Under the pieces are notes generated by a model. It was not told the origin of the DNA. It was given only the letters and a program-made list of their open reading frames with translations, and did no database searches. Both the position numbers and the translations under genes were made by a program. A stretch of 64,000 nucleotides of DNA from Platycnemis pennipes (Eukaryota > Arthropoda > Insecta > Odonata > Platycnemididae), in NCBI GenBank assembly GCA_933228895.1, contig OW121856.1, positions 18,431,805 to 18,495,804 on the forward strand, in the 5' to 3' direction. Shown here one piece after another: positions 1 through 34,644 of the stretch (positions are counted from its first letter, which is position 1; every line of letters begins with the position of its first letter).

Positions 1-2450
1 ATATCACCATCTTGCTAACATCACGAGCTCCATCAATCTTCAAAATTCAATATTTCTCTTGTCATAACTGGGTTAGCATTATATGCATGAATAAACATGT
101 CCAGAAGGCTAAATATTGCTTTTGACGACATAATTCATATCGCAATATTTTTTCTAATATTTTAGTTCACTGTTGGTTAGTAACATGTGATTTTCAAACG
201 TGTAAGTGAATGTTAGAAGGTATAGTAAAACGTTGTCGAATACTTTCCATAAAATCGAGATTACTGCATCTACCAGGATTTTTTCAAATGATAGAATCAA
301 AAAATGAACAAAATATCTCTACATATCTAACAATATGAGCCATATCCCTTTTGCTTTATTTTCGATAAAAATTCAAATTTTTCAATATTTATAAAAACAT
401 AAGACAATGAATTGCACCGATTGCTCACCTGATTTAATGAGGGACACGTTATCCCTCTGTAAGGAGAACAGATCGTGGGTATCAGATTTCTAGTCTCTTT
501 GTTTAATTATGGAAATGCAATGTCCACCAGTGATTTTTCCCCAAATAATAATAATAATAATAAATATGAAATTCTCCGAAAAAATATAGTACAGAATTAT
601 GAACGGAAATTAAATCGGATCTTTAGAATCCCCATAAGGCACTTCTTTCCATAGACAGTTTCAGAAAATGCTCATATTCTCGTAACTTTAATTCCCTGAA
701 TTTGTGCATACGAAATAAATAGCACTCTAAGAATCAATCCGGGCTTCAATTTCCATGTGTTTCTAGTCTTCCAAATTCATATTTACATTTTTCGTTAAGG
801 AGTAAATTAGATTATGTGGGCTATTTTAAGCCCCTCACTGCTGCCTGAAGTAAAATACATCACAATCATCTCGCTCTATCAACAGAAACCTTAAAAGCGA
901 AAGCTTATTGACAAAAACCTTGTCGACGAAAAATACATATTTTTAGTCTCTGTTTGCTCTATTATATATTTAGTATATTTTTACTAACTAAATACCTATT
1001 TCAATCAGAGTAAGGATATTAATCGTGTATGTAATATATAATGATTATTAAGTTTTAATTTTGTTGACTTTTTAGACTATTTCTGGATTTTCGCGAAAAA
1101 ATTATTGAAGTATATTTAGGTTTAGGTTTTTTCTTGAAAACCTTTCAGGAGGTATTCACCTAAAATATTCTACGGTGACCGAGGAATAAACTAGGCCAAC
1201 GAATGAGCCTCAGATGCATTCTAGTGACCTTGCATGACAGAGAAATTGAAAAAGGTCTTGTACTCTATATTATGGATAATAAATAGGAAGTTGTAATTTT
1301 TTTATGGCCTTCAAGAAAACTCCCTCAAAAAACACACTTTTATACTGAATATTCTGAGCATAAAAAATAAAAGGGCACGTCAAATAATACAAGGAGAGAG
1401 CTGAAGTTGGACGCTTCCGTAAATCAAATCAGTTTCCCAGGCGAAATCCCTGGGAAGAAAGCTTCCTTGTTGTATTGGGAAAGGGTGACGGAAAGCCCCG
1501 AAAAATATCCTGTTAAAAAATGATCCCCGTCACTTCGGGCGCGCAGTCGAGGGGGTGAGAGGGAAGGGGAGGGGTTGAAGAATGGCAGGCCCCACCCCCA
1601 TCCCTCTCCCTCGCTGAATAACTAATGACGATGACCCAAGGATCGCGGACGAGAATCGATAATTCAATTCCATCTCATGGATGAATCAGAACCCCTCACG
1701 CACGCAATTTCTGGGGCTACATGAATCCAAAAACTATGATCGGCGTATGCATAATGGGGAGAAAAACTATGCAATAATATGCAATACAAGACCCAAAGAA
1801 ATCTTAGGAAAAACCGGGTTGAATATTAAAGTGTTACGTCGGATTTCTTCGCTGATGAAGAAGCAATACTTCGAATCGAGAAAAATCACAGAATACTAAT
1901 AAAAAGTATTTTCTAAAAAATGGATTTTCTGTGTATTGAACTGTTCTCCTGTTCCCTGACATCAAAGCTGACATTGATATATTTCAGCAGAAAAATAAAT
2001 TCAGAATCCAAATAAACTGTTGCTCAATAATGACTGCATATAAATATTACCATTGCTATGCATTTCTCCCAAGGAACTCTCAAGAAAATAATCGCCGTCA
2101 CTCTATTTTAAGGTATGGGCAAACGTAAAGGGCTTGTATGATTCTTCGCTTCCACATGACATACATAACAACATGAAAATCTGCTAGGCATTGGCGTCCT
2201 TTTTAAATTTGGCCATTGCAAACGCGCTCAGATTGTTAGTTACACTTGCAGGTGATGTACTCTCACGTTTGAATAAATCCCACCGGAGCATCGCACAAGG
2301 GGATTGGAAGAAGTTTTTTCGTAGACAAGATGAAGTACACTCAGAAACTCCACCTTCTGTTCGCGTTGATTGGCACCGACATTTCGACAGGAAAATTTGC
2401 CGTCTTCTAGGTGAACGGTGCACCGTTGGGAAACCCTAGAACGCTTCATC
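1..2450. other. AT-rich intergenic stretch, no gene seen
   Basis: I see no supported gene here. Open frames are short (72-82 codons) and lack recognisable motifs. There is a short AAT trinucleotide run at about 544-563 and a G-rich, polypurine patch near 1530-1620. Confidence 0.6.
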
Positions 2451-2454
2451 TAAA

Positions 2455-2790
2455 TTACTCGCCCGGAAAAGCAGAGATCTTTCATGGCTCGAAGGTGTTT
2501 CCGAAAGAGCTAGTTAACGAGGATATTCGACCTCGATAAGTTTTACGCCCGCACCCACATCCCGAACGTCATCCGGCTCCCGGAGACGCGACGGCGCTCG
2601 AATGTCAAGTCCGCTTTTCGGATTCCGAAGCTCCGGCTTGACGTCCGCCATATTCGGCCGCAGACACGCCCCCGCGACATGATCATTACGGAGGGTTGGT
2701 GCTCAAGAGAACGCCGTATATCTTCAGAGGAACGCGACACCTCATTTAGCGCCTCGTCGCATTCCACAGATGCATGCCCCGGGAATCAAA
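2455..2790. other. CpG-rich island-like patch
   Basis: Base composition changes abruptly from AT-rich flanks to a CpG-rich block of about 330 bases. Several overlapping open frames exist on both strands but none shows a known motif. It could be a regulatory CpG island, an old exon or a decayed repeat; the sequence does not decide. Confidence 0.3.
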
Positions 2791-3866
2791 TGCGCTCTAA
2801 TTTAAGTAAAGAGACCATTCGGGCCATTTGCAAGACCATTTCAGATCTACAATCAGCTTTTGTTTGAAGCACAGCTTCGTTTTTTAAATGAGTCGTTAAA
2901 AAACACGAGATGATAATGAAACTCGGATTCCGCTCTGCGGCACTGCAGTCCTGAACTAAAAGGGGATTCCCATTTTGAGCGAGTACCTTAGCCTTCCCCT
3001 GCCAATTATAATAATAAATAAATAAAATAAACAGCAACGACATCATTAATGACTGTGCAATCTATAAAGATTTATACAAAAAATTAAAAATAATAGCAAG
3101 GCTTCACAAATATACTTTACAAAACGAATGTATCAAGAGAGCTTATTAGTAAATGCTACGAAGTAGTACGCCAGTCACATTATTGCATTGAGACATTCTA
3201 TTTTATCATTTAATAACCCAGAAAGATATTGATTATCTCCTTATAAATTCTAGAATTGGGGACTTATAAGATAGAAAACACAAAGGCCGAAGCTACAAAT
3301 ATGGGTCTTGAATAATTTAAATAGCATTTAAGGCTTACTGATGCAAATGAACTCAAGGAATGGATGAGAGACCCATTACTCGTATTTAGCTTACGTTGCA
3401 TAGTGGGAATAGAAAACAACCCAAAGATTTTATTCTTTACCTACGCTATCTGAAAATCCTTCTTTCAAGAATATGAGAGCTCGGAATTTTAGTTTTTTAG
3501 TCTAACGTGCACGTTGAGAATTGGATTATTTTTTCTATACTCCCTGCCGTTTTGAATTAATCTGCTCCTTACAAAGAATGATCCATGCATACGAAATTCG
3601 TTAGTTACAAGTACACCAATTTAGTAACTTAAAAAGAAAAACAGAGAGTTGTGAGCTTTGAGCTTAACGGGATTATGGCTCAAGCTACAAGGAAAATATA
3701 AGACGACAACCATTTATCCTTTCCTCCATGTTTACCCTCCTGTCTATTATAATAAGTGCAATTTTCGCTTAATTGTACAGCAGAAACTTGAAGAATTGGG
3801 TGAGTAGCAGGAGTCGTAGATGCAATAAAAACGTCATCACAGTAGTTGGTTATCGCGTTCAAATTT
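2791..3866. other. AT-rich intergenic, nothing recognised
   Basis: No coding, RNA or repeat signal that I can support. The stretch ends at the left terminus of a hAT element. Confidence 0.55.
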
Positions 3867-4318
3867 CAGTTAACCAGGTTGATACGCATTGCCAGTTTTG
3901 AATTTCCCTGACTTTTTCCTGACCTTCCAGACCAAAACATACATTTTTCCCTAGTTTGAAAAAAATCACCTCTTTCAAAAACTAAAGAAATAGAGTTATG
4001 TCCAAATACAGCTTCTTTTAAAGAATTAATGTTAAGTACAGGTACATCAGTTCTTGTACATAAAATGGAGCCTAAATAAAGCGTCACTAAAAGATTTATC
4101 TTTATGGTAAAAGTACATCAACTCTTGTACAATAAATAACACATCAAATATAAACCACAAAAAACAAGACCACACACAGTGGGCTTGAAATCCACGCTTC
4201 AAAACAAAACAGCTCATTCAATCATCTCTGCAGGCGGGCAAGTTCTTCGACAATGACCTGTTATTCAGATAGTTTTTCTGCTAAAACTATCATCTTCATG
4301 TCTCTCAGTTGTTTCATT

Positions 4319-4816
4319 TCATCTAAAATAGAATGTTTTTTGGACCGCAGACATGACCATTTCTTCCTTTTCCTTTCGCACTACCTCCAACTCTTCTTGG
4401 TACCTGTATCTTGCACTTCTAGCTTTGTTTACCATTGACTTTGTGGTCTTCAAATTTAGTAAACCACCAGCGGCCGTAATTCCGTCATAAACTTGCCTTT
4501 GGACGATTAGAGAATATCCCAATAGATTTTCAATGATTATTTTCTTGTTGATAGAGAAACATCTCTCTACATGAACATTTCCATGACTTAAAATTAGCAC
4601 TTTTTGGAGGAACTTATACAGGTTTACAAACTTATATTCACTAGATAAATAACTTTGCCACAAATGGCTCATTCGGGTTTCCGACCTTTTGAACTTTTTT
4701 AAGATATTTATCCTATACTGTGAATCACGCATCTGCTTGAATTCCCTTTCAACAACATCGCATTCTGAGGGAGAAATCCAGTTTCTTTTAGAAAATATGT
4801 GAAGAGTACTGGTCAA
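4319..4816 (-). pseudogene. hAT-like transposase, C-terminal part
   Basis: This is a 165-residue open frame on the minus strand. The segment LSHGNVHVERCFSINKK, at about residues 76-92, resembles the conserved C-terminal block of a common insect transposase group (small residue, glutamate-arginine, phenylalanine-serine), matching the hAT dimerisation region in layout. The C-terminus is charged and coiled-coil-like (RYRYQEELEVVRKEKEEM). It lies inside the 3875-6489 element and is preceded on the same strand by further pieces at 5304-5564 and 5655-5830, so it is the 3' end of a broken transposase gene. I recognise the family from pattern only. Confidence 0.6.
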
Positions 4817-26706: not shown

Positions 26707-27222
26707 TGGCGTAGCCAAAATGTTCTCCAGGGGGGGGGGCAAAAATAAGTTGTTTTCTGTTAAAAAAATTGTTTAATTTGAATACTTGAAAATGCTAAAA
26801 TTAATTTGTTAAAATACTATTCTACACCTATCTAAATCTTTTTTCAGCACGAGCCAACGAGAGTTCTGGCTAAATCTTGACAGAATTTCTTTCTTAAATT
26901 TATTTTTAGCGACCAGAACCCTCTTTTTATGCACACTCATCATACAATGACCGACAAGGCGATTTTCTCTAATTGCAGACCGTAACCAAGTGTTTACCCT
27001 GGGTAAGGTGCTGAAGGTTCTTTCGATAGTGCATAATGTGCAGCGCTGTGCAAGTGAGATGAGTAGCGCCCGTTTTATGGATGGGTAGAACAACTGGGCT
27101 TCTTTAACTAGTGCAGCTAGTTCTCTCTCCTTCAGTTCGGCATTTGGCACATTATGTCCTTTCCATTGGTAGTACCAAAGTTCAGCTTCACCGAAGAAAT
27201 CATTCAAATTTAAGTGACCACA
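26707..27222 (-). mobile_element. hAT element, 3' half, split by the virus-like element
   Basis: It starts with CAGTGGCGTAGCC at 26707, a common hAT terminus followed here by a G run. The minus strand then encodes the transposase C-terminus (26809-27222). The matching inverted end is not found downstream near 32340-32400, so the other end is lost or unrecognisable. Confidence 0.6.
26809..27222 (-). pseudogene. hAT transposase C-terminal dimerisation domain (ZMYM1-like)
   Basis: Minus-strand frame reading CGHLNLNDFFGEAELWYYQW, then ALLISLAQRCTLCTIERTFS, then LPRVNTWLRSAIRENRL and CMMSVHKKR. The order (conserved glutamate-arginine-(T/S)-phenylalanine-S, then W-L-R-S and N-R-L) matches the hAT C-terminal dimerisation region of the zinc-finger MYM type 1-like group. 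The open frame runs on into the TIR of the inserted element (to 27258), where the first dozen residues are not transposase. The rest of the gene continues beyond 31695. Confidence 0.75.
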
Positions 27223-27462
27223 AGTAGGGTCAATTTGTTCATTCTGGGACAAGGTCACCCTTGAAATTACAATTGCCTTTCACTTCCGGATACGTCCAAC
27301 CCACTTTCCCTTTTCGTGCACGGAGACACCCGACCCACTTTCACTTTTCGCACACGTGTTGAGGAGACGTGTACCACCCTTCCACTATTGCATGCAACAT
27401 TGCCATCGTTTCTTTACCTCCCATCTTCTCAGACAGTATAAAAGCGCGTTAAATCAAAGCGA
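27223..27462 (+). repeat. Left TIR of the virus-like element
   Basis: This 240-bp copy differs from the reverse complement of 31455-31694 at one position that I could find, near 27456 (A versus G). It contains two direct copies of ACCCACTTTC(C/A)CTTTTCG at 27299-27316 and 27333-27350 (34-bp spacing) and a TATAAAAG box at 27437-27444. Confidence 0.9.
27437..27444 (+). promoter_or_regulatory. TATA box in left TIR
   Basis: TATAAAAGCGCG lies 19 bp inside the TIR's inner edge and faces the capsid-like frame. An identical box in the right TIR faces the minus-strand gene. No in-frame ATG follows on the left until 27698, which suggests the original first gene start was deleted. Confidence 0.55.
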
Positions 27463-27463
27463 G

Positions 27464-28393
27464 AACTTCGGCTACTTGCCTATCAGAGCTCAGCATACAC
27501 TCCAGACCTACCGAACGGATCCCGCAGCTGATGAACTCTTCTCAGATACCGCTGGTTGGACTACTGTCAGATCTCGATGTTCTGGACTGATCCCAGATCC
27601 TGCTCCTGACTGGACGGTGGCTTTAGGGGTAAATAGGAACTTAGGAACTAAAAATAGGAAATTGCTGTTAGATCGGGTCGATATAGGAATCAGGTTGATG
27701 CTTTCAAACCCTGCGTTTAATCTGATGGGAGTGGATGGGGGAATAATAAAAATACTAGATGCGACTCTTTACGTTCAACATTTCGACATCAACCCTTCCA
27801 TATTATTGGCACACAATAAGATGCTGGAAAAAAATAATGCTAGATATCACTACAAACGTACCGAAATGAAATCTTTCACGGTTCCTGCCGGTGGACGAAC
27901 TCTCAGCATTGATAATGCGATCGTTGGTCGAATACCCAACACCATAATATTTGCTATGGTTGATAATGACTCGTACGCTGGTAAGGTTGACAAGAATCCA
28001 TTTGCTCTCTCTCACTATTCCCTGGAAAATTTTTCACTCTTTGTAAACGGTGTTCAGTTTCCTTCCGAGGGGTTGGAGTGTAATTTCTACAGTAAAAAGT
28101 ATTGGGCACGAGCGTATGATACCATATTCTCAGGCAGTGGAATAAAGCATTATGATAGAGGAAATCAAATTACGTATGACATGTTTGGACATGGATATTT
28201 CATGCTGGTGTTCGATCTCACCCCGGACGATTCAGGAAACGAAGATTATATAAGTATCGGAGATCGAGGTGTGGTGCGAATAGAGGCGAAATTCGAGAAA
28301 GAATTGGCAAACACCGTGACGTGCTTGGTATTTGCAGAATACGATGCCTCTCTAGAAATCGATAAAAACAGGAACATCATCACAAATTATTAG
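27464..28393 (+). CDS. Major-capsid-like protein, N-terminally truncated
   Basis: The readable product is about 310 residues from the TIR junction to the stop at 28391-28393. It resembles a family found in many invertebrate genomes (annotated after C. elegans F54H12.2) that I take to be a Polinton-like virus capsid protein. Conserved-looking blocks in order are LLLDRVDIGIRLMLS, ATLYVQHFDINPSILLAHNK, NPFALSHYSLENFSLFVNG, RAYDTIFSGSGI, GYFMLVFDLTPD, and a C-terminal EIDKNRNI. Family members are usually about 450 residues with an N-terminal domain before the DTAG-like region. Here that part is missing and the frame runs straight out of the TIR. The first in-frame ATG is internal (27698). The open frame extends upstream to 27356, but that part is TIR. 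It ends 7 bp before the protease. Confidence 0.65.
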   Translation, partial: NFGYLPIRAQHTLQTYRTDPAADELFSDTAGWTTVRSRCSGLIPDPAPDWTVALGVNRNLGTKNRKLLLDRVDIGIRLMLSNPAFNLMGVDGGIIKILDATLYVQHFDINPSILLAHNKMLEKNNARYHYKRTEMKSFTVPAGGRTLSIDNAIVGRIPNTIIFAMVDNDSYAGKVDKNPFALSHYSLENFSLFVNGVQFPSEGLECNFYSKKYWARAYDTIFSGSGIKHYDRGNQITYDMFGHGYFMLVFDLTPDDSGNEDYISIGDRGVVRIEAKFEKELANTVTCLVFAEYDASLEIDKNRNIITNY

Positions 28394-28400
28394 TCTTGCA

Positions 28401-28916
28401 ATGGATAGTGTACGGATTGATAGGTTATTGAATCCGTTTAAAATATTCCGCGGAGTCTTCGCTTCTGATAAATTACCTCAATCTCCTAGAAATGGTGTAT
28501 ACGTAGTGAATTTAGATCCTTCATACTTACCTGGGTCTCATTGGGTCGCGGTATATACATTCAATGGAATAGGAGAGTATTTTGACTCTTACGGATTGGC
28601 CCCTTTCGTTCCGGGTATAATAAATTTTTTGAAACCTTTCGCTTACACTCACAATAGCGTTCAGATTCAAAGTTTCCATTCTGATATTTGCGGAGAATAC
28701 TGCTGTCTTTACGCAGCTAGTAAGTCGTTAGGGTACACATTACACAAATTCCTCACACAATTCCATCACACCATCCCTCATCTCAACGACTGTCGCGCTT
28801 TGGAGCGGTTCCACCTGACCTTCAACGAGTTGAGGAGTGAAAGCAAGTGTCATCCCAAAGCTCAACGGTGCTGCTCGAGAATAAATATGATGCTTCGGGT
28901 GAAGAAACGTCATTGA
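28401..28916 (+). CDS. Adenain/Ulp1-like cysteine protease
   Basis: 171 residues with an ATG start 7 bp after the capsid-like stop. The catalytic set of the adenovirus-type C5/C48 protease fold is visible in order: His47 in GSHWVAVYTF, Asp62 in EYFDSYGLAPF, Gln90 in QIQSFHSD, and Cys97 in ICGEYCCLYA. Proteases of this class mature capsid precursors in adenoviruses and Polintons, and its place beside the capsid-like gene fits that role. The C-terminus is basic and cysteine-containing (SKCHPKAQRCCSRINMMLRV, then KKRH), possibly a DNA- or cofactor-binding tail. The frame is intact. Other SUMO-protease-like functions are less likely given the context. Confidence 0.85.
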   Translation: MDSVRIDRLLNPFKIFRGVFASDKLPQSPRNGVYVVNLDPSYLPGSHWVAVYTFNGIGEYFDSYGLAPFVPGIINFLKPFAYTHNSVQIQSFHSDICGEYCCLYAASKSLGYTLHKFLTQFHHTIPHLNDCRALERFHLTFNELRSESKCHPKAQRCCSRINMMLRVKKRH

Positions 28917-28934
28917 CGAGAGAGACTTTCCGAA

Positions 28935-29456
28935 ATGCAGATCGTTGCGTCAGTGTGCTTCGCCAAGGGTGGCGTCATTGAGCTGGCAGCTGTGGATGTC
29001 GACTCAAATCGTTTGTTCTGGGGGAGTTTTCAGAAGCATGGAAAGCTTATCGCTGGTGGGAAGAAACTGCGGTTACATGATCCGCTAAACTGCGAGGAGA
29101 CCACCTTCGATCATGGATTCATCTCACATGTGGAGCTCCTACCCGCGCTGGAAGCCATCATTGAAGGAGCAACCTCTTTGTATGCATATAGTGAAGCCGA
29201 GTGTGAGTTCCTCTCCGACCTCACAGACCGTACCTTCATTTCCCTGAAGAAAGAACTCCATTGTCCGGCACCTGAAAAATGCTCCTTCCCCACCTTTTCC
29301 TGTCTGAACCCATGTCATAAGTTACGTAGCAGTACGTGTGCACTCCGTGATGCGCATTCCCTCGCTCAATGGATGCAATACAACCGCCTCAAAGCAGAAG
29401 TTGAGCCTTGCTCCAGCGACTGTTCCCCCACCCCTCCCCCACCTAATCCCTCTTAA
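28935..29456 (+). CDS. Unknown accessory protein, paralog of 30226-30696
   Basis: 173 residues, beginning 18 bp after the protease stop. No named domain is certain. It opens with a beta-rich segment (VIELAAVDVDSNRLFWGSF) and ends with CALRDAHSLAQWMQYN followed by a proline-rich tail. The same framework appears in the protein at 30226: an ELA triplet near residue 16-21 and, about 118 residues later, C-A-x6-L-A-x-W-x3-N with identical spacing. I infer the two are ancient duplicates. The layout of an acidic beta strand and helical C-terminus hints at an RNase H-like fold, but no full catalytic set is visible, so no activity is claimed. Confidence 0.6.
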   Translation: MQIVASVCFAKGGVIELAAVDVDSNRLFWGSFQKHGKLIAGGKKLRLHDPLNCEETTFDHGFISHVELLPALEAIIEGATSLYAYSEAECEFLSDLTDRTFISLKKELHCPAPEKCSFPTFSCLNPCHKLRSSTCALRDAHSLAQWMQYNRLKAEVEPCSSDCSPTPPPPNPS

Positions 29457-29488
29457 GCAAGATAATATCCTGTCGATCATCAGTTGTT

Positions 29489-30082
29489 ATGCAGTCATCA
29501 TCGATGAAGGCGTCTCCGCCAGTGAAAAGGAAGAGACCTGTTGAACATCCTCCCGCCCCCTCGTCATTTTCTAACAGTAATAACTTACTGCTTCAGACTG
29601 TGTATTATCTCAATGGTGTAAAATCAAAAAGTGTTTGTGTGGGTTACGACCCCAGCAGAGACTTTGAACCAGTAGTGCAATTTAATCATACAACTAAGAA
29701 AAGTGTTATTGTTTCACATAGTTAATGGACTAATGTCATAAATTTGGAAAAATCAGTGAGTAATTATTTATATGCTGGTTTAAAAGATCAGCTCTCCTCA
29801 AATTGCTTATCCTATGCAAATTACTTTGGGAAGCGACATTTGTCTATTAAAAATATTTTACCAAAGAGCTCATTTAACCTTAATGCCGGTGAATGGGAAG
29901 CTCTATTAAAAATCTCCAATCTGATAAATCTATTCCTCCGGAGACTTTCGGACAATCACGATAAGGTTAGACAATTTCTCGCTAGCAGGATATCTAACGA
30001 TATCACTGAAAATGATCTGGAAAGGTTGGAATTTGATTTTATACTCATGTTGAATGATGTGTCTTGTAATCAAAAGGTATAA
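29489..30082 (+). pseudogene. Two-repeat small-domain protein, broken by one in-frame stop
   Basis: A single frame of 198 codons with one TAA at 29723-29725. The N-terminus carries a basic nuclear-localisation-like patch (PVKRKRPVEH). After it come two copies of a small module: the first ends WTNVINLEKSVSNYL just after the stop, the second ends WEALLKISNLINLFL, matching in length and hydrophobic pattern. Each is preceded by a short beta-rich stretch. The layout recalls the beta-sheet-plus-helix of PC4-like DNA-binding modules, but this is only a resemblance. The stop falls between the two conserved parts of repeat one, so either two short products are made or the gene is dead. Confidence 0.55.
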
Positions 30083-30119
30083 CTTGGTTGTACTTTGATT
30101 ACGTGTGTTTGCAAAGGGT

Positions 30120-30223
30120 TTCTGACCTCTGGCACGAGGTAAAATTCTGCAAGTCAGAAGCTCTTGTAATCTCTTGAACCTCTGGCATTGGGTGTAAAAA
30201 CCTTGTAAGTTCGAGAGATTACA
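30120..30223 (+). promoter_or_regulatory. Two tandem stem-loops upstream of the 30226 gene
   Basis: Stem-loop 1 pairs TTCTGAC (30120-30126) with GTCAGAA (30153-30159). Stem-loop 2 pairs 15-base arms at 30165-30179 and 30209-30223 with one mismatch (TGTAATCTCT then T or C then GAAC). Both loops contain a related CTCTGGCA segment and an A-rich run, so the hairpins are diverged duplicates. The second stem ends two bases before the ATG at 30226, where a hairpin could affect transcription or translation start. Confidence 0.55.
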
Positions 30224-30225
30224 CC

Positions 30226-30696
30226 ATGAGTGTCATTATCGAATTTCAAGGATTCACCGCAACTTATGGTGAATATATAGTTAAGGAATTGGCCATCATT
30301 AATATGCATACGAGATGTTGCAATACGTGGCTTTTCAAATCGCCTGCAAGATTACTGTACGCGAGAGACTCGTCTTGGTTGAGAAAGAACTATCATGGAT
30401 TGAATGAATACTCTGGGGATGTAGATTATTCGGAACTGGAGAGTATATTATTTGAATATACAAAGGGATATCAGTTTTTATTCACAAAAGGTGCTCAGAA
30501 GGCATCCTTCTTGACCAGTCTCCTTCCCAAAGGAATATGTGTGGGTAACTTGGAAATGTACGGCTGTCCTTCACTTAAGAAATTAGCCACAAATGAGGAC
30601 TGTTTAATTAAGTCACATTCTCAAAATAATCTGCAATGTGCAAGAAAAAATTGTTATAAGCTAGCAGATTGGTGTACACAAAATAAAATATGTTAA
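30226..30696 (+). CDS. Insect virus-like-element accessory protein of unknown function
   Basis: 156 residues with a clean ATG. It belongs to a recurrent insect genome family recognisable by an N-terminal IIEFQGF block, KELAIIN, WLFKSP, then KNYHGLN and DVDYSEL, and a cysteine/histidine-containing C-terminal half ending C-A-R-K-N-C-Y-K-L-A-D-W. I know the family as a pattern but not a proven function; it may adopt an RNase H-like fold without the usual acidic triad. Its C-terminal motif is spaced identically to that of the 28935 protein. AATAAA signals follow the stop at about 30703. Confidence 0.65.
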   Translation: MSVIIEFQGFTATYGEYIVKELAIINMHTRCCNTWLFKSPARLLYARDSSWLRKNYHGLNEYSGDVDYSELESILFEYTKGYQFLFTKGAQKASFLTSLLPKGICVGNLEMYGCPSLKKLATNEDCLIKSHSQNNLQCARKNCYKLADWCTQNKIC

Positions 30697-30823
30697 AAAA
30701 TGAAATAAATCTGTCAAACCTATATGCTATGTGTTTTATTTACTGAACAACCCTTACTCTTAATACTAAGGAAAAGGTATTGAGAAATGATGACTAGGCG
30801 AGAAGATTTGATTTTATTTTTAT

Positions 30824-31420
30824 TTAGAACAAAGTATATTCAGTTGGTACAACATTCAGTATAAAAGTATACGTTTCCAAATGCTTCCCTCGTTGATCGT
30901 AAACATTACAATAGTTGATTCGTGACTTTTCTCCAGTTGTGAATGTCACAGGTGGGGCGAAATCAAATTGGACACCATCCGTTGACGTTCTCCCGCCTTT
31001 TGAAATGAACTCGGATCCTCCCATTGAATAAGCAATCTTCTTCATCTTCTTTATATCGTAGACATGGCACGTGATGGATGGATCTTGTCTCTTGGCCTTC
31101 TCCAACTTATCCCCCTCGAGTTTCAGCTGCTTGATCGTGGAAACGTTGAAACGTTCCACTTCATCTGTTTCCGGATTCTCAAACCCCGAAAATATTACAC
31201 TTTTTCCCACGATATTTATGGATTTGTTCATATGTTTGAACACTGTGAAGCATCTGTCCTCAAATTCTATACTGAGATTAAGATCGTTCTCTTCGTTGTT
31301 GCCCAGTAGTGGTAATGGGAGGAGCACTTCATATATGTTGTTCACATTATCCTTGAATTTACGAACGAGGAGTTGATGCTTCCCACCAAGCTCAGCTTTC
31401 ACGGAGAGTAAGGGAGACAT
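30824..31420 (-). CDS. Unrecognised beta-rich protein under the right TIR promoter
   Basis: 198 residues on the minus strand, with the ATG at 31418-31420, about 55 bases downstream of the TATA box in the right TIR. I do not recognise it. It is predicted beta-rich without signal peptide or membrane segment. A lysine-rich central stretch (IKQLKLEGDKLEKAKRQD) separates two beta-rich halves, and it ends in aromatic/hydrophobic residues. Position at one end of a capsid-encoding element, with its own promoter, suits either a structural (minor capsid-like) or an early regulatory protein; neither is shown. An AATAAA on the minus strand near 30818 ends the unit. It is convergent with the plus-strand genes. 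Confidence 0.6.
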   Translation of the reverse strand: MSPLLSVKAELGGKHQLLVRKFKDNVNNIYEVLLPLPLLGNNEENDLNLSIEFEDRCFTVFKHMNKSINIVGKSVIFSGFENPETDEVERFNVSTIKQLKLEGDKLEKAKRQDPSITCHVYDIKKMKKIAYSMGGSEFISKGGRTSTDGVQFDFAPPVTFTTGEKSRINYCNVYDQRGKHLETYTFILNVVPTEYTLF

Positions 31421-31454
31421 CCTTACGTGTCGAATATCTGTCAGCGATTATATA

Positions 31455-31694
31455 TCGCTTCGATTTAACGCGCTTTTATACTGTCTGAGAAGATGGGAGG
31501 TAAAGAAACGATGGCAATGTTGCATGCAATAGTGGAAGGGTGGTACACGTCTCCTCAACACGTGTGCGAAAAGTGAAAGTGGGTCGGGTGTCTCCGTGCA
31601 CGAAAAGGGAAAGTGGGTTGGACGTATCCGGAAGTGAAAGGCAATTGTAATTTCAAGGGTGACCTTGTCCCAGAATGAACAAATTGACCCTACT
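31455..31694 (-). repeat. Right TIR of the virus-like element
   Basis: Reverse complement of the left TIR over 240 bp with one mismatch found. It is followed by ACCACA (31695-31700), identical to the six bases left of 27223. Confidence 0.9.
31473..31480 (-). promoter_or_regulatory. TATA box in right TIR
   Basis: TATAAAAG on the minus strand, with its inner edge 53 bases from the ATG of the 198-residue gene: a canonical TATA, about 30-base initiator distance and short leader. It is the best-formed promoter in the window. Confidence 0.65.
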
Positions 31695-32340
31695 ACCACA
31701 AAAACTTGTAGTTTTTCTAAAAAATTCTCATACGCCATATCAACCATTATGTGAGGGTTCAACGTAAGCAATGAGAATGTGGGCAAGTTCTCCTAAAAAA
31801 TATGCCGTTCCCGATACATTATTAATGAATATGTACGAAATAATATAGTGATATTCTCCCAAACTCACTAGGAGTCCGTGATGGTGGATTCGCAAGATGT
31901 TTCTGCTGATTAATGACACGCGGCATACTGAAATCTGTTCCAAGATGCTCGACGATTGTTTCAGCCTCTGCTATAACACTTCCACTTTCAACAACTGCAT
32001 TTCCTCGGTGTTTTACATGTCGGTGGGTTTTTTAATGTGATTTTCACACTGAAGTAAGTCCACACTTTTGACTATAGAGCATTTACCGCCGCTTGCAGGC
32101 GTGCTGAATATTGGCTATGAGACAAATAAAAACTAGGAATTCTGATTTTTTAGCAGCGTAATGTATTTGAAAAGCAGCTTTTCTCGTTGCAATGGTACCG
32201 CCTGTTGATATTTTTTCAAGCACCATAACAATTTGCACATAATGCTCCTTGAATGTGGCGATACTTTTATATTTTTTAGACCAATGGGTTTCACAGATCA
32301 TTGGTATCTCTGTTATGGATTTTCGACGAAGGGCAAATTC
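31695..32340 (-). pseudogene. hAT transposase, N-proximal half, split by the virus-like element
   Basis: On the minus strand the hAT reading continues with CETHWSKKYKSIATFKEHY and TRKAAFQIHYAAKKSEFLVF (32083-32301). A frame-shifted part at 31860-31990 follows, with GSVIAEAETIVEHLG and MPRVINQQKHL. These match, in order, the mid-portion of ZMYM1-like hAT transposases, where C-E-T-R-W and P-R blocks precede the C-terminal domain. Together with 26809-27222 this shows the virus-like element landed within the transposase gene. Multiple frame breaks show the hAT was already decaying. Confidence 0.65.
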
Positions 32341-33399: not shown

Positions 33400-34275
33400 A
33401 GAAGGACTTAAAGTTCACCCAACTAACAGCAATAAATTTTGCTAGGTTGGCTTTCAGTCCTTATACCAACACGCAACTAGCTATGCTATCCATCGAAACA
33501 CTTGTACTAATACTATTGGATATAATTACAGCCATTCATATTCCTGATTGAATGGGGAAAAAAGGGCATTTTGAATCTGTCACTTTGACAATCACTTTCT
33601 CTAATTTTATGATCATGTTCCAGTCTACCATGTTGGAGTTCGCAAAATATTTTTAACGTCATTAGTGAAAATATTGGGGGTCGTGGTGGCCTAGTGGGTA
33701 GAGCACTGAGCTATTGACCGGTCCCGGGTTCAAATCCCGGGCAAGAGCCTTTCTATACACCCCAATCTAAATCCCTCGCGATTCGATTTTCTGTCAGAAC
33801 TGGGTAGGAAATCGCAGGTGTTCCAGGGAAAGGAACTGGCCCCCCTACCCTGAATGTGTGAATTTCATATGCCAATGGCTTAGTACGGGGTGAGCTCTAC
33901 ACTCACTGAATGAGTGAGAGCGAGTGAAAATATTATCTTGGAATTTATTCTAGAGATATAGTCAATATTCCAACCTACGATCAACCAATGATTCACCTTT
34001 TAGTTCATCTAATAAACTGGTTACGCTAATATAGTTATCATAACGTCCCTTTTTCAATTCTTGCTGATCTTTCGTCTTTTGCTGATTCTTGCTGATCTTT
34101 GAGACGCTTCAGTTCATTATCTAAGCCTATTTTGTAATGAACCCATATACTGGCAGCGTATTCCAAATTAGGAAAAAGTAGCTAATTTCTCGAGCATGAT
34201 AGTCACATTTGCCCAGTACACCTTTGATGTGTCCCAGTTTACGATTAGCATATGTATATGTAACGGCGCATTCAT
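33400..34275 (-). mobile_element. CR1/Jockey-like LINE, 3' end, copy F
   Basis: Minus-strand copy of the G/F subfamily, interrupted by a SINE at 33676-33922. It continues to about 34275 with a decayed coding part (RKLGHIKGVLGKCDYHAREI), ending only about 15 bases before a host splice acceptor. Confidence 0.6.
33676..33922 (+). mobile_element. tRNA-derived SINE with target duplication
   Basis: The A box lies in GTGGCCTAGTGGGTAGAGCA and a strong B box in GGGTTCAAATCCCGGGC. The body (GGGAAAGGAACTGGCCCCCC) matches other copies of the family. It is flanked by a 12-bp direct repeat AGTGAAAATATT at 33664-33675 and 33923-33934, and the LINE it interrupts has the unsplit sequence in copy G near 45295. 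This is a SINE, not a tRNA gene: the acceptor stem does not close. Confidence 0.8.
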
Positions 34276-34290
34276 TCTCTCGTTGGGCAG

Positions 34291-34464
34291 GCGTAGGGGG
34301 GAAGGAGGAGGAGGCAGAGGAGGAGGAGGCGGCCATCAAGATCCAGGCGGCGTTCCGCGGCCACCAGACGAGGAAAGCGATGCGCAGCGGCACCGGAGAC
34401 GAGGGCCAGGCGGCGGCCGAGGAGCGCGCCGCACTCGAGGCGGAGTTCAGCCCACAGGACGAAG
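34291..34464 (+). CDS. Internal exon of an IQ-motif (neuromodulin/igloo-like) protein
   Basis: A GC-rich 174-bp block with a splice acceptor (TCTCTCGTTGGGCAG, ending 34290) and a perfect donor (GAAG, then GTAAGA at 34465). The plus-strand frame reads GKEEEAEEEEAAIKIQAAFR then GHQTRKAM: a textbook IQ motif (IQxxxRGxxxR) after an acidic run, followed by an alanine/glutamate-rich stretch. It binds calmodulin by family knowledge. The layout recalls igloo/neuromodulin-type proteins, but other IQ proteins share it. Both exon ends are phase 1, so the exon can be skipped or repeated without frame change. Neighbouring exons are outside the window or too short for me to see. The acceptor could instead be the AG at 34295. 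Confidence 0.75.
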
Positions 34465-34470
34465 GTAAGA
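34465..34470 (+). promoter_or_regulatory. Splice donor of the IQ exon
   Basis: GTAAGA follows GAAG at the end of the coding block, matching the consensus donor. Confidence 0.7.
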
Positions 34471-34572
34471 GACCCCTCGCCAACACCCGCCAACCAGGCC
34501 ATGCCCATCAATACATTTCCGTTTCTCACGACCGTGGGGGTGTGTTTGGAACCATCGGGAATATCTGGAATT

Positions 34573-34644
34573 TATATATATTAATTTTGTAGCGTGTCAG
34601 TCCGTCAATCTGTATCCGTTTTGTTTCGCTCTCTCCCAATTCTT
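34573..34644 (+). repeat. Interspersed repeat, copy 1, part 1
   Basis: TTTTGTAGCGTGTCAGTCCG through CTCTCCCAATTCTTG aligns with 36621-36700. It is split from its second part (35647-35762) by the insertion at 34645-35646. Confidence 0.65.

Follow-up and report, generated by a model that had tools for sequence, protein, structure and literature searches.

Within a 64,000-nucleotide stretch of the Platycnemis pennipes genome (contig OW121856.1, positions 18,431,805 to 18,495,804; hereafter the window), positions 27223–31694 hold a compact virus-like element of 4,472 bp, which is very probably one defective copy, shortened by an internal deletion, of a 14.6-kb Polinton (adintovirus-like) family with many copies in the same genome. 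The host genome (1.79 Gb in 88 contigs) carries this Polinton/adintovirus-like family with PolB, an integrase with chromodomain, an ATPase-like gene, a full-length capsid gene and a protease gene. A full-length copy on contig C7 (C7:101864379–101878971) measures 14,593 bp and exceeds the window copy by 10,121 bp; the window copy can no longer replicate, integrate or build a capsid alone.

The deletion junction was located by comparison with other copies of the family. The left 418 bp of the element show 98.1% and 98.6% identity (by substitutions) to two of these, and the left subterminal stretch of the parent family (27463–27640, forward strand) breaks off after 27640, exactly where matches at 39 other places stop. 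This is followed by a 19-bp filler (27641–27659, forward strand) that is continuous with neither parental flank. From there on, element positions 438–4472 differ from the C7 copy by 28 substitutions over 4,026 aligned bases (99.3% identity) and by three gaps of 41, 8 and 1 bases, and the match in C7 runs on into a complete capsid gene of 428 amino acids (aa). Copies on C1 and C9 are 99.1% and 98.9% identical in matches that fall inside this stretch, with a protein alignment that spans capsid residues 1–429. Position 418 of the parental left arm is joined to approximately codon 185 of the capsid gene, with the intervening ~10 kb absent; this missing part is the one that holds PolB, the integrase and the ATPase-like gene. 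The filler and its flanks have an 8-base word in common, equalled in 114 of 5,000 shuffles, which hints weakly at templated end joining.

The capsid gene itself was cut by the deletion. The longest reading frame of the window copy (27660–28393, forward strand) is the 3′ part of the gene and is 83% identical to residues 185–429 of a capsid protein of 429 aa; in a profile built from 69 capsid relatives the match begins at profile position 183 of 431. The first 184 of the 429 residues are absent, leaving the second jelly roll only. A full-length relative (P0006), modelled with 69 sequences at a predicted local distance difference test score (pLDDT) of 90.8, is predicted to fold as a double jelly roll. 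The best match of this model in the PDB was Sputnik (3j26, E-value 6.4e-16), PBCV-1 was also recovered, and iridovirus and mavirus proteins scored lower. In the model, the strands from E22 to E175 form a first block within residues 1–184; this block was interpreted as the first jelly roll, and the window copy lacks these residues. A capsid start further upstream, within the terminal repeat, was indicated by tblastn alignments of two of seven relatives (P0023 and P0030, 43% and 38% overall) and rejected; we placed the capsid boundary at the deletion junction because both the profile and the DNA of the parental copies put it there, against these two alignments. The capsid protein's closest named relatives include proteins from the dragonfly Ladona fulva. 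In a viral library the best match was a bracovirus-associated protein (32% identity), followed by adomavirus, virophage and MELD-virus proteins. No relative turned up in scans of viral contigs, whether the query was the capsid fragment of the window, P0006, either of two capsid alignments or the 156-aa protein described below.

The limits of the element are real and exact, as the initial annotation had claimed. Polintons conventionally have terminal inverted repeats (TIRs) that begin with AG and duplicate 6 bp of their target. Here the termini read AGTAGGG...CCCTACT and the left (27223–27462, forward strand) and right (31455–31694, reverse strand) TIRs are 240 bp each. A direct count showed a single difference between them, at position 234, where the left TIR differs both from the right one and from five TIRs of relatives. 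Chance does not account for an inverted repeat of this length with a single mismatch. An exact 6-bp target duplication, ACCACA, flanks the element on the left (27217–27222) and the right (31695–31700). When the flanks were joined with one ACCACA and searched against the host genome, 40 matches were reported (40 of 61 candidates scored), of which 38 crossed the joint and two were the window's own flanks; a single ACCACA stood at the joint in all four empty-site matches inspected closely. The left flank appears to encode the C-terminal end of a hAT transposase; its match to Dimer_Tnp_hAT scores 21.1 bits, slightly below the cut-off (21.4). Since other copies of this hAT-like repeat have the empty site, the element represents a clean insertion into one repeat copy. 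Within the left TIR are two 34-bp tandem units (27287–27354). A reading frame running through the left TIR (27401–27478) gave a weak match to the Pfam family DUF5863 (20.3 bits, cut-off 25), which may come from translated repeat ends among the members of that family. A 14-base TIR word was also tried against viral contigs, where it hit at least 120 stretches with one match in each of the 80 inspected; this is chance level and was not used.

The initial annotation had proposed searching the host genome for full-length relatives and identical short copies. This search recovered the full-length family and, among the scored candidates, the junction in the window only. A query that started at the inner edge of the left TIR and extended past the capsid boundary gave 40 matches (40 of 253 candidates scored), and the window alone covered query positions 1–298; the remaining 39 covered exactly 1–178, i.e. 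they end at the breakpoint. No second copy with the window's junction was found among the 40 scored candidates, and the single-copy answer is strong but not complete.

Five other short copies, on C2, C4 and C7, have one common internal junction different from that of the window, joining left-arm position 2337–2339 of L179 to position 2937–2940 of L161 in all five. They had the same flank at every end inspected; TTTGTG or its complement formed the duplication at both ends of four copies and at one end only of the C4 copy, whose other end had no match to the end word. A 19.2-kb copy on C1 has its flanks and duplication in common with these five and includes at least 3.9 kb that none of the family pieces matched. 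The positions lie near contig ends, at 0.27 and 0.38 Mb on C2, 0.58 and 138.48 of 138.62 Mb on C7, 149.6 of 150.0 Mb on C4 and 173.8 of 174.0 Mb on C1. The simplest reading is that the TTTGTG copies are one deleted insertion spread by duplicated chromosome-end (subtelomeric) segments, their differences in size apparently stemming from tandem-repeat number and later insertions. The C2, C4 and C7 short copies were also considered as a mobile short lineage, which was rejected given their one insertion site and one internal junction. In all, the TTTGTG insertion was recorded at C2:265k, C2:378k, C7:583k, C7:138.48M, C4:149.62M, C1:173.83M and, at one end, C3:154.81M. A third deletion, of element positions 2785–3885, was found in the copy at C9:943673. 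Internal deletion has occurred at least three times in this family, and transposition of a short form is shown in none of these cases.

The parent family is represented by numerous paired arms. The TIR query gave 46 genome matches (40 of 127 candidates scored) and the right subterminal query gave 40 (40 of 242 scored); pairing 40 left arms with right arms resulted in 33 pairs, with seven left and seven right arms unpaired. The distance between TIRs was 13.8–14.5 kb in 25 of the 33 pairs (14,046 or 14,047 bp in 11), 19.2 and 21.6 kb in two, 4.5–7.2 kb in five and 3,992 bp in the window pair. Exact 6-bp duplications were present in nine of ten large pairs, and in the tenth (C2:79257576) the duplication was shifted by one base. 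The 21.6-kb pair on C1 was rejected as one clean insertion, having no matching duplication (ATCTTT/ATTACA). The two TIRs of the full-length C7 copy show no difference over 273 bp, those of C1:160.4M and C5:143.0M differ by two and six substitutions respectively, plus length differences, and the family is apparently both high-copy and recent. TIR length varied by 34-bp units among copies, and the two ends of one copy could also differ in length (240 and 301 bp in C5:143.0M). Decay was seen in large copies too: in C1:160.4M a stop interrupts the protease frame, and the next-but-one gene has a gap of 2 bp.

The genes of the parent family were read in pieces from three different copies and never joined into one. 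In the left third of the C1:13.8M copy, an open PolB run of 999 aa shows 54–55% identity to the PolB frames of two other elements; across two family copies (this run, and 269 aa in another) the range is 54–62%. A family without PolB had been considered and was rejected when stop-to-stop reading revealed PolB, cut at fragment ends. The middle third of the C5 copy contains the end of PolB, then a 221-aa ATPase-like frame (Pox_A32, E-value 0.0011, below the curated cut-off), an open integrase frame (rve, E-value 2.2e-14; Chromo, E-value 2.2e-8), two small frames and, directly ahead of the capsid gene, a 351-aa frame that is a candidate penton by its position only. The right third of the C7 copy has open frames for proteins of 198, 156, 197, 173 and 171 aa and for the 428-aa capsid. 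The parent family is a standard Polinton and, as far as tested, close to the definition of adintoviruses. In full-length members the stretch from the left TIR to PolB contains a tandem array of 135-bp units (8.3 copies, L179:358–1480). A search of the host genome with PF03175 (91 of 329 candidates scored) gave no match inside the family intervals in a by-eye comparison. Other Polinton-type PolB genes occur outside these intervals (50 matches reported, e.g. C6:133338631 and C10:22185784), some of them open for more than 1,100 aa.

What remains in the window copy is the right part of this gene set. The initial annotation had described a capsid-like gene, a complete-looking adenain-type protease and no PolB, integrase or ATPase. 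The last of these points holds, none of the three being seen in the reading frames of the window copy and the parental part that holds them being missing; the capsid-like gene is present, albeit as the fragment described above, and the protease frame is intact. This frame (28401–28916, forward strand, 171 aa) contains His47-Asp62-Gln90-Cys97, spotted by eye, which we take to be the adenain-type catalytic pattern. It had no Pfam match, and its PDB matches were weak (best E-value 0.051) and included no proteases; the name putative protease is given because of this pattern and the shared gene order. The frame shares 62% identity with a section of the Ladona fulva gene model P0044, whose gene order agrees with that of the window: the capsid comes first, then the protease and the 173-aa protein, and last the beginning of the stop-bearing gene.

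Downstream of the protease lie a 173-aa protein (28935–29456, forward strand) and a gene with an in-frame stop at 29723–29725 (29489–30082, forward strand) that is open, at 197 aa, in one full-length copy. A 156-aa protein (30226–30696, forward strand) has five homologues and is conserved in larger relatives; the 173-aa protein is its distant paralogue (24% identity, E-value 1e-5 in a single comparison). Homologues of both the capsid and the 156-aa protein were listed on contigs of two common lengths, 6,901 and 13,243 bp, hence larger relatives are suggested. Adjoining the right TIR on the reverse strand is a 198-aa protein (30824–31420) with one homologue and the same gene in the C7 full-length copy; its structural model had a pLDDT of 38 and was not usable. 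Beyond the element, window positions 34203–34592 matched an IQ calmodulin-binding motif (28.4 bits, above the cut-off), and this stretch is perhaps part of a host gene.

Over element positions 438–4472, private substitutions numbered 16 in the window copy, 20 in the C1:160.4M copy and 12 in the C7 copy, and the stop at 29723–29725 is private to the window among these three. Without constraint, 78.5% of coding changes would be expected to replace an amino acid. Among the window-private changes in six frames, five were silent and six replacing, one of these being the stop (P = 0.067 for so few replacements). In the four open genes, counting both lineages, 5 of 13 or 6 of 13 changes were replacing by two ways of counting (P = 0.002 and 0.011). 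This deficit across both lineages mostly reflects selection in the living family and leaves the odds of the competing readings unchanged. Most private changes probably arose while the genes were still in use, and if these changes are older than the loss of function, the inactive copy is young.

The simplest account is a deletion in place after integration. A normal Polinton would have inserted into a hAT-like repeat, producing the 6-bp duplication, and a later double-strand break with end-joining repair may have removed ~10 kb comprising PolB, the ATPase-like gene, the integrase and the first half of the capsid gene together with the gene ahead of it. Several points weigh against this account. 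A deletion before integration would leave the same anatomy, which fits either order of events. Of the five genes that lie right of the capsid gene, four have kept open frames, and their window-private changes are five silent to three replacing (P = 0.014), a deficit that a short form kept functional would also give; moreover, just 40 of the 253 junction candidates were scored. In a second explanation, the deletion occurred in an extrachromosomal replicating molecule and a 4.47-kb molecule with both TIRs and the protease integrated once, using integrase and other functions supplied in trans by full-length relatives. The perfect target duplication agrees with such an origin, as does the recency of the family, seen in the identical TIRs of the C7 copy. 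Both window TIRs have the 240-bp form and one base is private to the left, hence they were probably identical at integration; however, a full-length parent with two 240-bp TIRs is possible, as TIR length varies by 34-bp units. Integration in trans is further consistent with the replacement deficit in the four open genes, whereas a deletion in place yields equal anatomy and one copy only was found among the scored candidates. We consider this second explanation unlikely, and it keeps what weight it has partly because a functional short form leaves the same mark on the genes. The initial annotation had offered a young deletion derivative moved in trans as one of two explanations: that the element is a deletion derivative stood, with the parent family resident and the junction fixed at base level, but movement in trans gained no positive evidence.

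Its other explanation, an undescribed small Polinton lineage that packages with helper functions, is very improbable. The compact form, perfect ends and open protease gene are what such a lineage would have. Set against them are the 99.3% identity to a full-length copy over element positions 438–4472, a capsid gene without its first jelly roll, a stop in one gene and the failure to find the junction a second time among the scored candidates, while the five other short copies have another junction and one common insertion site. An assembly error joining two Polinton arms is scarcely credible. Many family copies of near-equal length can mislead an assembly, but here the same 6-bp duplication stands at both ends, inside a hAT-like repeat that is contiguous elsewhere, and the filler continues neither parental flank. 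The few, long contigs (88 for 1.79 Gb) would also suggest long reads. A single defective copy of the 14.6-kb family, deleted internally, accounts best for the element.

Deleted copies of large transposons are common. The window copy is itself ordinary, and its value lies in pointing to a high-copy, apparently recent parent family and in illustrating that a convincing compact virus-like element can arise by one deletion with its ends unchanged. If integration in trans were true, the deleted molecule would be a natural defective (satellite-like) Polinton genome. Literature searches aimed at non-autonomous or internally deleted Polintons returned no papers, which carries little weight as most subscription journals lay outside it.

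In its TIRs and 6-bp target duplication the window copy agrees with Polintons/Mavericks, and the double jelly-roll capsid and putative adenain-type protease, together with the PolB, integrase and ATPase-like gene of the parent family, are also as in these elements. It differs in being without PolB, the integrase, the ATPase and almost half of the capsid gene, and in its size of 4.47 kb, compared with 14.6 kb in its own family and the 15–20 kb given for Polintons/Mavericks of animals by Krupovic et al. 2014 (PMC4028283). Ends of a resident family enclosing an internal deletion, the marks of a non-autonomous Polinton derivative, are both present. The parent family resembles adintoviruses, as characterised in a preprint (PMC11071296), in its integrase with C-terminal chromodomain, PolB and double jelly-roll capsid, whereas the window copy is defective. 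The marks of an adintovirus are a PolB with an N-terminal OTU-like domain, a chromodomain-bearing integrase and a recognisable hexon. Some adintovirus hexons are described in the same preprint as truncated after the first jelly roll; the window capsid, in contrast, has lost the first jelly roll itself. Maverick consensuses of 600–4500 bp in Mayetiola destructor are described as copies with accumulated deletions (PMC8504770). Unlike the fragments as presented there, the P. pennipes element has both TIRs, a target duplication, a parent family and a junction placed at base level.

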